Assembly: GCA_944322745.1 (NCBI GenBank)
Contig: CALUPV010000001.1
Location: 1 to 64,000 of the forward strand
DNA length: 64,000 nt
Source: Candidatus Gastranaerophilales bacterium
GTDB taxonomy: Bacteria > Cyanobacteriota > Vampirovibrionia > Gastranaerophilales > Gastranaerophilaceae
Direction of reading: 5' to 3'
The position numbers and the translations under genes are program-made. The notes under the pieces were generated by a model. That model was not told the DNA's origin, ran no database searches, and saw only the letters and a program-made list of their open reading frames with translations. Below are positions 9,982 through 60,505 of the stretch, one piece after another; within the stretch, counting starts at the first letter, position 1; each line of letters begins with the position of its first letter.

Positions 9982-10072
9982 GAAAAACTCCAATTATTAG
10001 ACAATTATAATATCTATAAATGTACAAAAAGTAAAGAATATGATAACATAAGACATATTGGGAGGTTTTGTT

Positions 10073-10729
10073 ATGGTACAAAATGTATATTTAATGGAAA
10101 GAAATAAAAAAATAGGTGAAAAAGTCGTAATAAACTTTAAAAAAAGATTTTTTGATGCATATTTTGTAGAAACGAAAAAAGAAGCTTTAGAAAAAGCAAT
10201 TGATTTGATACCGCAAAATGATACCGTTTCTTGGGGTGGTTCAATGTCTGTACTTGAAATAGGGCTAATAGATCATATACAAAAAGGAAACTACAATGTA
10301 ATAAACAGAGATTTAGCAAAGACTGCCGAAGAAAGAACCGCAATGCTAAAACAAGCGCTATTATGTGATACATATTTAATGGGAACAAATGCCATTAGCG
10401 CAGATGGACAACTTGTTAATATTGATTGTATAGGAAACAGAACAGCTTCTTTAATGTTTGGGCCAAAAAACGTAATAGTAATAGCAGGAATGAATAAATT
10501 AGCAACAAATTTGCAAGATGCAATAAAAAGAGCAAGAGAAACAGCGGCACCAACAAATATGCAAAGAGTTGCAGGAAACGGATTAAGACAAACCCCTTGT
10601 TTCTCTACAGGGATATGTGAAGACTGTACTTCAAAAGATTCAATATGTTCAAATATTGTAATAACAAGACTTTGCAACCCACCAAAACGAATAAAAATAA
10701 TACTTACAGGTGAACCTTTAGGTTTTTAA
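10073..10729 (+). CDS. LUD-domain protein (LutC/YkgG-like)
   Basis: About 218 residues of the LUD (DUF162) family. Visible signatures are VSWGGSMSV (family W-G-G-S turn) and DTYLMGTNAIS(A)DG with the downstream GNR motif. A C-terminal cysteine cluster is also present (CFSTGICEDCTSKDSIC), as in stand-alone LUD proteins. Relatives take part in lactate oxidation with LutA/LutB, but neither is adjacent, so the substrate is unknown. The start is the ATG at 10073, 7 nt after an ideal GGGAGG; the longer frame from TTG at 10058 includes that site. The stop overlaps the convergent acetyltransferase stop by 4 bases. Confidence 0.85.
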   Translation: MVQNVYLMERNKKIGEKVVINFKKRFFDAYFVETKKEALEKAIDLIPQNDTVSWGGSMSVLEIGLIDHIQKGNYNVINRDLAKTAEERTAMLKQALLCDTYLMGTNAISADGQLVNIDCIGNRTASLMFGPKNVIVIAGMNKLATNLQDAIKRARETAAPTNMQRVAGNGLRQTPCFSTGICEDCTSKDSICSNIVITRLCNPPKRIKIILTGEPLGF

Positions 10730-11570: not shown

Positions 11571-12407
11571 TTAACTACTCATAAGCTCAATTGCATTTTC
11601 TAACAATTGTTTATGAGATTTTATTAACTGATTTGCAAGTTCCAATTGCATTTGAGCTTGTTGATAATATGCAGTATTAGCATCAAAGTCGACATTGGAT
11701 AATTCGATTAGACCACCTCTTACTTCACCACGACCAACAACAGGTTTGCCAGATTCTTCAGTTTCAATAAACTGACCATCTGCAACTTGGTACAACATCT
11801 GCGGATTATGAAAATTTATTATTGCTACTTTATATAATGGTGTCATTATTTTCCCACCATCGGCTTTTCCATACAATATACCATCATCTTTAAACTCAAA
11901 TTCTTCATATTTTCCAAGATATTTACCGTTACTTGGATCAATCCATAACTTTATATTTGTCGTAGGAACAGATGCCGCACCGCCATCAAATGCCGTATCT
12001 ACAAATGAATCTGCATCAACAGGTTTTGCCCCGTTCATTATTTCACCTTTGTCATTCAATATATACCCTTGAACAGCTTGTCCATCCGAACTTCTATATA
12101 CACCTTCTCCGTCAAATTTAAATTCACCAAGTCTTGTATATACAATTCGTCCCTTGTCGTTACGTAAAACAAAGTAACCGCTTCCTTCCAAATAAATATT
12201 TTCATCAGAAGTTCCCGGTGAAGATTTTCCCTGTCCGACATTTCTTAATCTTGTTTCTGCAATTGATCCATCCAAGAATGTTTTAAATGTAAATTTCTTT
12301 TCTCTATAACCGGGAGTATAAGCATTAACCAAGTTCTCAGATAAATTAGTTACCCATTCGCTTGTTATTTTTTGTGTATTTAAAGCATTTATAAATGCAT
12401 CACGCAT
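11571..12407 (-). CDS. Flagellar hook/rod protein, FlgF/FlgG-like
   Basis: 278 residues with the full rod/hook layout. The N-terminal helix with the NLSENLVNAYTPGYRE version of the basal-body rod motif is followed by EGSGYFVLRNDKG and YTRLGEF (typical of FlgF/FlgG/FlgE core). The C-terminal GGLIELSNVDFDANTAYY segment and a Q/L-rich helix close it. These proteins build the rod or hook of the flagellum outside the inner membrane. The start overlaps the stop of the fliK-like gene by one base (TAATG), showing translational coupling. I cannot separate FlgF, FlgG and a short FlgE by eye; length and core motif favour FlgG/FlgF. Confidence 0.88.
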   Translation of the reverse strand: MRDAFINALNTQKITSEWVTNLSENLVNAYTPGYREKKFTFKTFLDGSIAETRLRNVGQGKSSPGTSDENIYLEGSGYFVLRNDKGRIVYTRLGEFKFDGEGVYRSSDGQAVQGYILNDKGEIMNGAKPVDADSFVDTAFDGGAASVPTTNIKLWIDPSNGKYLGKYEEFEFKDDGILYGKADGGKIMTPLYKVAIINFHNPQMLYQVADGQFIETEESGKPVVGRGEVRGGLIELSNVDFDANTAYYQQAQMQLELANQLIKSHKQLLENAIELMSS

Positions 12408-13045
12408 TATTGCTCTCCTTTTTCTTTATCGTTCTTATTTCTATTCTGTTTACTATTATTTTGCCTGTAGTATAAATCATTATATGGTAAATTTTGTTCA
12501 TCAAATTTTTGTCTTAAAGCAACAATATTATTTCGCAAATAATTTTCGACCTCTATACTGCCGGGAATAAATTCTGCCGTCACTTTTCCATGCTTATCTA
12601 TTTTTAAAATAACAGATACATCATTATCAAAAGAAATTCTCACAGGCTTCTGAGTTTTCTGTGCTTTTTCTATCAATGATGTTAATTGATTAGTTACTTC
12701 TATAGTTTTTGTCGAAACAACATTCTGAGAAACATCAAGCTTGACAATTGACTTAAAATCACCTGTTTTAGTACTTTCAACAGAAAATTGACCTTCCTGT
12801 GCCAAATTAACAAAAAACAATGCATCTTCTAGATTTATAGAAAGTGAATTATAATCATAATCAATACCTAAAGAACATAAATCAGAGTTTAGTTCAGATG
12901 AATCTTCTGCTGAATTTAACTTCTGCATTAATATATCTGAGAAAGGAACATTGGATGAAGATAGAATTTCAACATCTTCTGGTTGCATCTGAATTATATT
13001 TTCTTTTTTTTCTACATTTTGTTTAGTTTGGGTATCTACTTTCAT
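12407..13045 (-). CDS. FliK-like flagellar hook-length control protein
   Basis: 212 residues. The N-terminal half is polar and low in conservation. The second half (VRISFDNDVSVILKIDKHGKVTAEF, then NYLRNNIVALRQKFDEQNLPY) looks like the FliK C-terminal domain, in which two strands are followed by a helix and an L-x-x-x-G/N-x-x-x turn. It is followed by a basic Asn/Lys-rich tail. Its place between fliJ and a hook/rod gene, with an 11-nt gap to fliJ and a one-base overlap to flgG, fits FliK. It is short for the family (commonly 300-600), so this is a contextual call. Confidence 0.55.
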   Translation of the reverse strand: MKVDTQTKQNVEKKENIIQMQPEDVEILSSSNVPFSDILMQKLNSAEDSSELNSDLCSLGIDYDYNSLSINLEDALFFVNLAQEGQFSVESTKTGDFKSIVKLDVSQNVVSTKTIEVTNQLTSLIEKAQKTQKPVRISFDNDVSVILKIDKHGKVTAEFIPGSIEVENYLRNNIVALRQKFDEQNLPYNDLYYRQNNSKQNRNKNDKEKGEQ

Positions 13046-13056
13046 TTTTATTCCTT

Positions 13057-13518
13057 TTAATCGTCTTCGCCTTCTTCTTCTTTTCTTTCTTTCGTTTGCC
13101 GAAAATATTTTTGTACTGCTACTTCTGACAATAATTTATTTTCAGCTTTTTTTTCTTCTTCTTTATATACCTCTAGAGCTTTTTCTTTATGCTTTTCTAG
13201 TACTTTTACTTCTTTTTCGCATTCTACTAATTTTCTCTTTTCTTCTTCCAGAACTTCAATTGCAGCTTGTTTCTGTTTTTCAAGTTCTTCTCCTTTTTCA
13301 TAAAGATGTTTCAAATATTTATCATAAGAGTCCATCATTCTGAAATCGGTTGTAGAACGCATTGTCTTTATAACACCTGCTATTTCTCTATTATTTTCAT
13401 CAATTAATCCTTGTATTCTATCTACCTCATTTTTTGCTTTAAGAACTTCTTGAAGTTGTTCTTCTTTCTTCCTTATTCTAAAATCAAGTACCTTTTGCAA
13501 TCTATATCTGAATGGCAT
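13057..13518 (-). CDS. fliJ: Flagellar export chaperone FliJ
   Basis: 153 residues, nearly all coiled coil, starting MPFRYRLQKVLDFR, the classical FliJ opening (F-R-x-x-L-x-x-V-L-x-x-R), with Glu/Lys-rich heptads throughout. FliJ links the FliI ATPase to the FlhA export gate. It is the first gene of the minus-strand cluster with a FliK-like and an FlgG-like protein. FliI itself is not in the window; the operon may be split from other flagellar genes. Length matches FliJ (about 147). Confidence 0.87.
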   Translation of the reverse strand: MPFRYRLQKVLDFRIRKKEEQLQEVLKAKNEVDRIQGLIDENNREIAGVIKTMRSTTDFRMMDSYDKYLKHLYEKGEELEKQKQAAIEVLEEEKRKLVECEKEVKVLEKHKEKALEVYKEEEKKAENKLLSEVAVQKYFRQTKERKEEEGEDD

Positions 13519-57977: not shown

Positions 57978-59543
57978 TTATTTATCTTTCTGAATTTTAT
58001 TTTTATCCCCTATAAACTTTACACTTGTTTTAAATGGATTAGATGTATAACCAAAAGTACTTTCATAATGTACTTCTTTTTCTTCATATTTTAAACTGTT
58101 ATTTATATAAAGTATATTATATGGATCTGAATATATTCTCTTATAGTCATTACGTTTGACCAGATAATCATTGACTAATGCATTAGTTGGAACAATTATA
58201 TAATCATGTTTATAATTCCGTCTTAAAATTTCATCCCAATTTTCTTTTACATTATAGAAATTATCCAATAAATCTTTAGTTTGTTTATAATAAACTTCTT
58301 CATAACGTCCATCCATATATATAAGATTATTAGGGAATAACTTATAGATAATATAGCTTCCCATATCAAAAGGTGCTAAAATATTACCTTTTAACTCTTT
58401 CTTACTAATAAAATTAACAACATCAACAGGCTGCATAGACAAATTCGGATGGTATAAATAATTTATGTTTAAAATAAGATTGCACAGAGAAAATATAATT
58501 ACTATACAACTTAGTAAAACAAATATTTTTCTGGAGTCCAAATTAATTTTTATTTTTTTTATGATGAAATCAAGAACATTAAGTAATTCATCATATAAAA
58601 ATACAGCAGAAGTAATAATAAAAAATGGTGTATTTTTTATATATTTAAAAGACAAATATGCACAAACAATGAGTAATATATATTTTGTATAATCAAGTTT
58701 GAACTTCTTAATAGAACAAATTAATAATAATAGATTAATTAAATATAATACTTTAAATTCAATCAGGAACAGCTTATTCGGATGAGCAAACGGGCTAATC
58801 CATTCAGTAACAAACGGTCGTTCCATTGTTGTTGCCATGAAAATAAATTTTACATAATCAACTCCATAAGGATTTATAAACATTACAAGAAATGAAAGCA
58901 ATAATACATACAAAAAGTGCTTATTTTTTTTTCTATTTAAAAGTTCACCAATAAAATAGATAAATAATAACCCCAATAAAGAAACACACCCGCCATGTAT
59001 ATTTACCCAAAATAGCATAATAACAGGGAGCGTATATAGTAATTTATAATTTTTAGATAATCTTACCTTTTCTAAAATAAAAATTGAAATAGAAAAGAAT
59101 AAGAAAGTAAAAAGATGACATCTTATCCAAGATTGAGTAATTGTAGGCATTGCAAGCACGATAAAAATAAAATACAAAAGGTTGAATAATAAATTATTAT
59201 CTTTTTTGTGCAACCTTATAGTTTTATACAAAAATAAAAGAATAAGAAAGACTAAAATCGTTTTAAAAAATAAAACACCAATATATCCAAATAAGTTTTG
59301 TATTAAAGAAAAAATAATACTAGCACCCCACTCATGGTCAAGCCATATGTGAGTTGGAGTATAAGAAAAAATATCTGTTTTCAAAATACTTCCAAGTTGA
59401 AAAAAAGCATTACCTTGAAGTAATCTAGCCCAATAATCCATATCTACAGCAGAAAAAATTACAGTATTAAAAAGAATAAACAGAAATACTGAAACTATAA
59501 AGAAGAAATATAAAAAATAATAATTATCAATAATTTTTCTCAT
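57978..59543 (-). CDS. Multi-pass membrane protein, GT-C glycosyltransferase-like
   Basis: 521 residues with about 10-11 transmembrane segments to residue 375, then a soluble domain of about 130 residues. A short loop after the first helix holds acidic residues (SAVDMDYWARLLQG), and a second has DHEWGASI, the arrangement seen in GT-C enzymes using polyprenyl-phosphate sugars. The extracytoplasmic C-terminus includes FDMGSYIIYKLFPN and YMDGRYEE. Family assignment by topology only. It is the first minus-strand gene of the block and is followed by the U32 gene after 20 nt. Confidence 0.7.
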   Translation of the reverse strand: MRKIIDNYYFLYFFFIVSVFLFILFNTVIFSAVDMDYWARLLQGNAFFQLGSILKTDIFSYTPTHIWLDHEWGASIIFSLIQNLFGYIGVLFFKTILVFLILLFLYKTIRLHKKDNNLLFNLLYFIFIVLAMPTITQSWIRCHLFTFLFFSISIFILEKVRLSKNYKLLYTLPVIMLFWVNIHGGCVSLLGLLFIYFIGELLNRKKNKHFLYVLLLSFLVMFINPYGVDYVKFIFMATTMERPFVTEWISPFAHPNKLFLIEFKVLYLINLLLLICSIKKFKLDYTKYILLIVCAYLSFKYIKNTPFFIITSAVFLYDELLNVLDFIIKKIKINLDSRKIFVLLSCIVIIFSLCNLILNINYLYHPNLSMQPVDVVNFISKKELKGNILAPFDMGSYIIYKLFPNNLIYMDGRYEEVYYKQTKDLLDNFYNVKENWDEILRRNYKHDYIIVPTNALVNDYLVKRNDYKRIYSDPYNILYINNSLKYEEKEVHYESTFGYTSNPFKTSVKFIGDKNKIQKDK

Positions 59544-59683
59544 AAATGCATTCTATCATAATATAGGAAATCCTTTTGTTAAGTTATATGAAGCACTTAA
59601 AATCAATCATGATGGGCATTTTTACTTTTTAGAAAAAATTGTTAAATAAAAAACTAAAGTTAAAAGAAAAAATGACGACACAC
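59544..59683. promoter_or_regulatory. Gap with promoter of candidate small RNA
   Basis: Divergent region between the membrane protein and the small RNA. A TTAAAA sequence (59660-59665) lies 18 nt before the TATAAT box at 59684-59689. No other structure is seen. Confidence 0.45.
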
Positions 59684-59694
59684 TATAATGTCAA

Positions 59695-59762
59695 GGGCAA
59701 TAGCCCCATAAAACCTCCCTCCCCAAAGTCTAGTAGCCGCCTTAGTTGGACGGCTTTTTTTT
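59695..59762 (+). ncRNA. Candidate Yfr1-like small RNA (about 67 nt)
   Basis: A TATAAT box (59684-59689) predicts transcription from about 59695-59696. The transcript then has hairpin 1 GGGC-AATA-GCCC (59695-59706), an unpaired CU-rich stretch CCTCCCTCCCC (59714-59724), and a terminator hairpin AGCCG...CGGCT (59735-59755) with eight T. Cyanobacterial Yfr1 RNAs (54-69 nt) have the same order: hairpin, single-stranded CU-rich core, terminator. The core here can pair with Shine-Dalgarno sequences of the GGGAGG type used by genes in this window. The core differs from the known ACUCCUCACAC, so homology is unproven. Confidence 0.72.
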
Positions 59763-59944
59763 ATTGTTTGAAGCTTTTGTTAACTTTTATTAAGTTTTGC
59801 GTATATATTGCATATCCCTTTATCTATCTGCGTTTTTGACATTTTATATTTTTTATATATTTACTTTGTATATACTTTTTATAGCAATTAATTCTTCTTT
59901 TTTGTTTTTATATTAATACAAGATACGAAAAAGAGGATTACAAA
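59763..59944. other. Leader/promoter region of the 186-aa gene
   Basis: AT-rich, no gene. It should hold the promoter of the gene at 59945. A weak TATATACTTT sequence is present, but no clear box pair stands out. Confidence 0.3.
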
Positions 59945-60505
59945 ATGGGTTACGCTTTATTTGCTCAAAGAAAAGTTTGTTTAACTGGACAATTAAACTC
60001 TGTTAGCTTACAACAAACTCAACGTTCTAATGAACAATACTTATTAGCTACTCAGACTCTTTCTCTTCAACAACAACTTTCCTCTATGCAAGCTGCTCAA
60101 TCCCTTGAATTGTCTGACTTGTATGAATTATTATCTCATGCTACTGCTGATGGTGGACTTGATCAAACTTACGTTGATGAAATTAATAAAAATAAAGACA
60201 GTAACGGTAAAACTCAATACGAAAATTTAACTAAAGATGCTCAGGAATTAGTTGACAAGCACGAAACTGCAAATAGAGATGCTATCAATGCAAAAATTAA
60301 AGAAGTTGAATCCGGTTTTGAAGCCGAATTAGACGAGATTAACAGAGAAATTTATTTAGTTTCTATTAAAGAAAATGCTGTTGAAATGGAAGTTAAAAGA
60401 CTTGATACTCAAGTTTCTTCTCTTCAAAAACAACTTGAAGCCGTTGAAGAAGCTGAAAGCTCTGCTATTGACAGGGCTACTCCTAAATTTAACGGCGTTG
60501 GTTAG
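59945..60505 (+). CDS. Unknown 186-aa coiled-coil protein, codon use of a highly expressed gene
   Basis: Begins MGYALFAQRKVCLTGQLN and continues as Gln/Leu/Ser-rich helix (SLQQTQRSNEQ, SLQQQLSSMQAA), a short polar middle (about 65-110), and a second coiled coil (NAVEMEVKRLDTQVSSLQKQLEAVEE). It ends in ATPKFNGVG. No signal peptide. It uses ACT, TCT, CGT, GGT and CAC/AAC codons more than neighbouring genes, suggesting strong expression. AGAGGA lies 8 nt before the ATG and a strong terminator follows. I do not recognise the family; structural or secreted by a flagellar-type route is a guess. Confidence 0.75.
   Translation: MGYALFAQRKVCLTGQLNSVSLQQTQRSNEQYLLATQTLSLQQQLSSMQAAQSLELSDLYELLSHATADGGLDQTYVDEINKNKDSNGKTQYENLTKDAQELVDKHETANRDAINAKIKEVESGFEAELDEINREIYLVSIKENAVEMEVKRLDTQVSSLQKQLEAVEEAESSAIDRATPKFNGVG

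Follow-up and report, generated by a model that had tools for sequence, protein, structure and literature searches.

A conserved small RNA family of the Gastranaerophilales with an exposed C/U core and a sigma-28-type promoter

Is a short hairpin-terminator element in a Candidatus Gastranaerophilales genome a copy of Yfr1, the small RNA of Cyanobacteria, or an RNA of another family? The element lies near the 3' end of the 64,000-nucleotide stretch of DNA that was analysed (the window). An initial annotation of the window described a GGGC/GCCC hairpin, an 11-base unpaired stretch and a terminator with eight T, and proposed a homolog or functional analog of Yfr1 in a non-photosynthetic relative of Cyanobacteria. 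The three parts are found at the place that it gave, both in the sequence and in the fold. The element is very probably a real small RNA gene, and it appears to be one without an Rfam 15 family. Its parts, and the other features discussed below, are given in the table.

Features of the predicted RNA gene, a candidate target site and flagellar genes. Positions are those of the window unless a locus or contig is named; copies are those of the small RNA in different genomes.
Feature	Position	Strand	Basis or remark
Sigma-28 type -35 element TAAAGTTA	59655..59662	+	TAAAG, 16-17 bases, CGA/T in 71/73 copies; sigma-28 consensus
Sigma-28 type -10 element GACGACAC	59674..59681	+	n11 after the -35 octamer; 5/8 bases as in consensus GCCGATAA
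TATAAT	59684..59689	+	in 9/73 copies, hence not conserved
Predicted transcript, about 75 nt	59688..59762	+	putative ends, the 5' end placed from the position of the sigma-28 -10 element
5' hairpin (hairpin 1) GGGC-AATA-GCCC, 4-bp stem	59695..59706	+	fold and cross-copy hairpin tests
C/U core CCTCCCTCCCC, putative mRNA-pairing stretch	59714..59724	+	near-invariant columns; unpaired in the minimum-energy fold
Unpaired linker AAAGTCTAGT, conserved	59725..59734	+	near-invariant columns
Intrinsic terminator AGCCGCC-TTAGTT-GGACGGCT and T-run	59735..59762	+	stem kept in 36/36 diverse copies
Terminator stem	59735-59755	+	sequence and fold
T-run, eight T	59755-59762	+	sequence and fold
Predicted target site GGGAGGTTTT, ribosome-binding site of the LUD-domain gene 10073-10729	10060..10069	+	10-base perfect complement
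Hook-type gene, FliK-like and FliJ-like genes	11571-13518	-	FliK-like and FliJ-like below cut-off
Flagellar basal-body and export genes: FlgF/G type, rod proteins, FliE, FliF, FlhA-like, FliI	L054 3109-13454 (G000:C2)		own genome
FliA homolog	G000:C11:35873-36535		own genome; sigma-70 regions 2-4

In the minimum-energy fold of the window copy, 28 unpaired nt separate the two stem-loops. The match of the covariance model in the window spans 59689-59760. Against shuffled sequences, the fold stands out only mildly (z -1.91; 11 of 200 shuffles equally good), and hairpin 1 of the window copy taken alone reaches a dinucleotide-shuffle p of 0.055. What sets the element beyond chance is its conservation across genomes. 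The initial annotation held that no coding frame is present. A mechanical 66-aa frame with a TTG start (59639-59839) does run across the RNA gene; it is unlikely to be coding because the indels between copies are not multiples of three.

Conservation of the core and hairpins was looked for in homologous genomes and is found across the order. Of the 41 genus genomes, 34 match strongly in a DNA search (E <= 1.8e-6); the remaining seven give chance-level DNA matches only and no covariance-model match. A first covariance model, R1 (33 distinct copies; threshold E <= 0.01), has matches in 347 of the 383 genomes of the family, and these cover 38 of 41 genera. The initial annotation is supported in that the RNA is structured and conserved, exposes a C/U core and belongs to a non-photosynthetic relative of Cyanobacteria. 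A second model, R2, draws on 59 copies, taken from the own genus and from 20 other genera. It matches 277 of 382 genomes drawn from the class: 266/276 of the family, 10/10 from other families of the order and 1/96 in the rest of the class. In a draw from the phylum it matches 170 of 386 genomes, all inside Gastranaerophilales, and none of the 213 genomes outside the order. Group sizes in both draws are taken from genome numbering and order, and the large covariance scans used strict filters that may miss weak matches. The single match in the rest of the class is marginal (G444, E 0.0027), lacks a sigma-28 promoter and is probably due to chance. A genome scan with a short pattern gives, among the matches listed, 35 of 80 in Candidatus Gastranaerophilales (including Zag_111), one in Melainabacteria GWF2_37_15 and some chance matches in unrelated bacteria. 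The element thus belongs to a conserved small RNA family that, one marginal match apart, is seen only in the order Gastranaerophilales.

Most matching genomes carry one copy; some carry two or three. G007, G009, G010 and G035 have two copies each, and G023 has a tandem pair. Tandem copies are located at G485:C16 5958, 6320 and 6682, at G484:C1 78385 and 78542, and at G023:C15 21920 and 22088; every tandem copy has its own sigma-28-like promoter, and the repetition may perhaps serve dosage. The RNA lies less than 200 bases from a contig end at 10 of 58 loci (L005-L008, L018, L021, L022, L024, L034, L126), so some of the genomes that lack a match may owe this to assembly gaps.

The sequence of hairpin 1 varies freely while its pairing is kept: GGGC/GCCC, GACC/GGUC, GAAAAACC/GGUUUUUC and others. 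For each of the 59 copies in the A2 set, 200 mononucleotide shuffles were folded, and never more than 1.5% of them did equally well. With dinucleotide shuffles, p <= 0.05 is obtained in 31 of 36 diverse copies (mean -8.3 versus -2.1 kcal/mol); the other five are the window copy (0.055), L119, L140, L147 and L148, the last three being copies from two other families of the order. A covariance check over relatives was proposed with the initial annotation. In an alignment fitted to the model, 42 pair cells are changed on both sides, against 12.1 in shuffled alignments, all of them in hairpin 1. RNAalifold, applied to an unfitted alignment of the 36 diverse copies, recovers the terminator only and misses hairpin 1. 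The terminator stem is GCCG/CGGC in 36/36 diverse copies, one with a GU pair; since it is invariant in the A2 alignment, it contributes no covariation. The core is near-invariant (CCTCCCTCCCC in most own-genus copies, CCTCCTCCCC in most other-genus copies), and the linker AAGTCTAGT is near-invariant to the same degree. At least nine of ten core positions are unpaired in the full minimum-energy fold of 23 of the 36 copies only.

These data bear on the notion that the element is a chance hairpin-terminator pattern or an unrecognised repeat. The mildly unusual single-sequence fold, the loci close to contig ends and the genomes with two or three copies would fit it. Stems that change around a fixed core, a fixed promoter spacing and a single copy in most matching genomes make it extremely improbable.

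The surroundings of the RNA are variable. Upstream, on the opposite strand, a gene for a 521-aa protein or a U32 peptidase-family gene is found at 31 of 38 genus loci. Downstream genes vary within the genus; RicT occurs in the fetched downstream stretch at 10 of the 38 loci, and the small ORFs between the RNA and RicT can be absent. Five loci from G007, G009 and G010 have none of the five neighbour genes of the window, and none of 20 other-genus loci matches these five genes within about 1 kb. Outside the genus, 33 loci from other genera and families were compared, and the commonest neighbour recurs at four of them. Varying neighbours, an own promoter and an own terminator indicate a stand-alone unit. 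No plasmid match was found, and none of five viral-contig stretches with the short pattern matches the covariance model; carriage by mobile elements is rejected on these grounds.

The same context weighs on a reading of the element as leader or attenuator of a downstream gene. In the window, a 186-aa ORF (59945-60505, +) does begin 183 bases downstream on the same strand. It is present at only part of the genus loci, the downstream genes differ both within the genus and between genera, and the terminator stem is kept in every diverse copy; a leader function is highly improbable. The 186-aa ORF has no Pfam or NCBIfam match. Its start resembles, by eye, that of a 323-aa protein encoded behind a sigma-28-like site in L084.

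The promoter was annotated as TATAAT. This hexamer is present in the window, and it is rejected as the promoter: it is rare among the copies, and a start at about 59696 would fall inside hairpin 1. The sigma-28-type motif listed in the table has a spacing of 16 in 57 copies and of 17 in 14. A narrower frame of it fits 70 of 73 copies. In 300 rounds of random sequence from a first-order Markov model, it fits 0.7 on average and never more than 4; as related sequences, the copies are not independent observations. The count covers 73 of 76 places; left out are a contig-end copy without upstream sequence, L150 (a near-copy of L146) and L143 (G444). The consensus of 25 copies, from the window and from other genera and families, is TAAAGTTTT...TGCCGATAA. 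It matches, in sequence and spacing, the E. coli sigma-28 consensus, given as TAAAGTTT-n11-GCCGATAA in the part of PMC2859248 that was consulted. GCCGAT is the majority -10 sequence across genera, and the -10 of the window itself (GACGACAC) is a weaker version of the consensus. Transcription would start at about 59688, just before hairpin 1.

All 41 genus genomes encode a sigma factor of the FliA/WhiG family with a score above the curated cut-off. On the other side, a relaxed sigma-28 motif is found upstream of only 6 of 21 flagellin rows of relatives, with 2.1 expected; the 21 rows are those kept from 30 loci after nine without an ORF were dropped, and at least two of them are repeats. Counted across the own genome, the bare sigma-28 pattern shows no excess either (35 matches against 67 in the backwards control). 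Judged from motif and sigma factor gene, the small RNA is very probably under sigma-28 control.

Kinship with Yfr1 was the first proposal, and likeness is evident. Yfr1 (RF01116) is described, in the part of PMC2190773 consulted, as two stem-loops with an unpaired 16-20 nt stretch that contains the ultraconserved ACUCCUCACAC, 54-69 nt in total. Both RNAs are short, stand-alone and widespread in their lineage, and both have a 5' stem-loop, an unpaired C/U-rich stretch with CUCC and a 3' terminator, in the same order and at similar size. A diverged Yfr1 would be the same ancestral RNA of the phylum with its core changed from ACUCCUCACAC to CCUCC(C)UCCCC. The differences are as follows. The core of the window is CCUCCCUCCCC and not ACUCCUCACAC; 28 nt are unpaired instead of 16-20, and about 75 nt are predicted instead of 54-69. 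The promoter is of another type, sigma-28-like. The present RNA is found, in the class and phylum draws, in Gastranaerophilales only, the marginal match apart. A pattern of Yfr1 core plus terminator is absent from 12/12 Gastranaerophilales genomes and from two others of the class; it is a narrow control, because it finds Yfr1 in one of seven other phylum genomes (G490).

The search with the Rfam Yfr1 model that had been proposed as a check is negative. At gathering score the whole window has no Rfam match, Yfr1 included, and up to E = 10 the stretch 59540-59960 has eight low-scoring matches, far below gathering scores and none to Yfr1. RF01116 has no match at E <= 0.5 in 20 loci with the RNA, yet it matches the cyanobacterial G490 locus, used as positive control, with 57.5 bits. 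Conversely, the covariance model of the window RNA misses that locus and finds nothing in the phylum genomes drawn from outside the order. Descent from Yfr1 is very unlikely. The RNA of the window resembles Yfr1 in layout and in its probable way of working and, on the model searches, is not a member of it; of the two original proposals, homolog and analog, the second is plausible.

Two other groups of known RNAs invite comparison. Anti-Shine-Dalgarno (CCUCCUCCC) sRNAs of alphaproteobacteria, SmelA075/SmelA099 and RS0680a, are reported in the consulted part of PMC3927594 to carry the motif in the loops of two to four hairpins and to have an expression tied to stress. The C/U motif is nearly the same here: CCUCCUCCCC in most other-genus copies, where the CCUCCUCCC motif is found, and mostly CCUCCCUCCCC in the own genus. 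Several copies in some genomes are common to both. In contrast with those loops, the motif is here a single-stranded linker between one hairpin and a terminator. The sigma-28-dependent sRNAs of E. coli (UhpU, MotR, FliX, FlgO) are UTR-derived, bind Hfq and are conserved among some Enterobacteriaceae, according to the part of PMC10578931 consulted. Control by the flagellar sigma factor, proposed for the window RNA, would be shared with them, whereas the window RNA is free-standing, has a C/U core and is also found in genomes without detected flagellin. Among the open-access papers listed on small RNAs in Gastranaerophilales, Melainabacteria or Vampirovibrio, no title or abstract opening describes a small RNA peculiar to the lineage.

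The core is of a kind that could pair with ribosome-binding sites, and target prediction at starts of the GGGAGG type had been suggested. Of the ribosome-binding sites of 148 genes called crudely in the own genome, two contain GGAGG and three GGGAG; this rarity implies a core that would act selectively and not globally. Predicted duplexes of the core region average -5.7 kcal/mol at starts, compared with -3.9 inside genes. Duplexes of -10 kcal/mol or below are predicted at 14/148 starts, as well as at 7/148 sites inside genes, as any G-rich site would give them. The best-pairing start is that of the LUD-domain gene (-23.8 kcal/mol), whose site is the only 10-base perfect complement in the window; this candidate target was picked after the fact. 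The site is kept in two close species, G011 and G014, and is seen in three species altogether; its conservation is weak support, because much of the leader is also kept in these two. No LUD homolog was found in the stretches taken from G019, G032, G003 and G018.

A gene that we take to be rubrerythrin-like (L051, own genome; start codon at about 520, -) has a GGGAGG ribosome-binding site and is a second candidate target. The stretch ends within this gene, which is not one of the 148.

In the own genome, the full complement GGGGAGG(N)AGG is found only in the RNA itself. In 23 genomes, 25 of 40 matches are the other strand of the RNA; the other 15 compare with 12 in the backwards control, and of nine of these 15 that were examined, one precedes a start codon, by 10 bases. 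A conserved mRNA bearing the full complement was sought and is rejected, as these counts give no sign of one.

The near equality of these counts, and the linker AAGTCTAGT conserved as strongly as the core, would suit a different function: core and linker might bind a protein (a hub or a regulator) instead of mRNAs, with hairpins that are only protective. The anti-Shine-Dalgarno type of the core, like that of the RNAs in the consulted part of PMC3927594, speaks against this, and such a function is unlikely. Anti-Shine-Dalgarno action of the small RNA is somewhat more probable than not.

A trans-acting, sigma-28-controlled anti-Shine-Dalgarno RNA is probably the best explanation of the sequence data. 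RNA polymerase with a FliA/WhiG-type sigma-28 would transcribe a free-standing RNA of about 75 nt and stop at the intrinsic terminator. The 5' hairpin and the terminator would protect the ends and leave the C/U core exposed. The core, which would mimic the 3' end of 16S rRNA (anti-Shine-Dalgarno), would pair with those mRNAs, a minority, whose ribosome-binding sites resemble GGGAGG. This pairing would block their translation while the sigma-28 programme is on.

The own genome has basal-body and export genes, its FlhA homolog scoring below the curated cut-off, and a PF00669 search finds no flagellin in it. This agrees with MEL.A1, from which filament genes are reported absent in the consulted part of PMC3787301. 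Among 26 genomes chosen for carrying the RNA, 13 have flagellin and none was found in the other 13 (PF00669); in the own genus, one of six has it. The RNA thus also occurs in genomes without detected flagellin.

A second FlhA-related protein is found in 39 of 41 genus genomes (for example at G000:C9:49370-50428). It is mostly about 490 aa long and matches only the part of FlhA that runs from positions of about 316-344 to the end, 678.

Tentatively, an ancient RNA arm of the sigma-28 regulon may have outlived the flagellar filament in Gastranaerophilales and be kept across the order, even where basal-body and export genes stand without detected flagellin, so that sigma-28 would now run a translational switch and not motility; this switch might possibly act on lactate and redox metabolism. 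The finding adds to Gastranaerophilales a small RNA family that spans the order and matches nothing in Rfam 15. Under the proposed control, the flagellar sigma factor would be connected with an RNA of the anti-Shine-Dalgarno type, and a sigma factor kept where flagellin is not found would have an output open to test. A layout like that of Yfr1 can occur beside Cyanobacteria without detectable homology.
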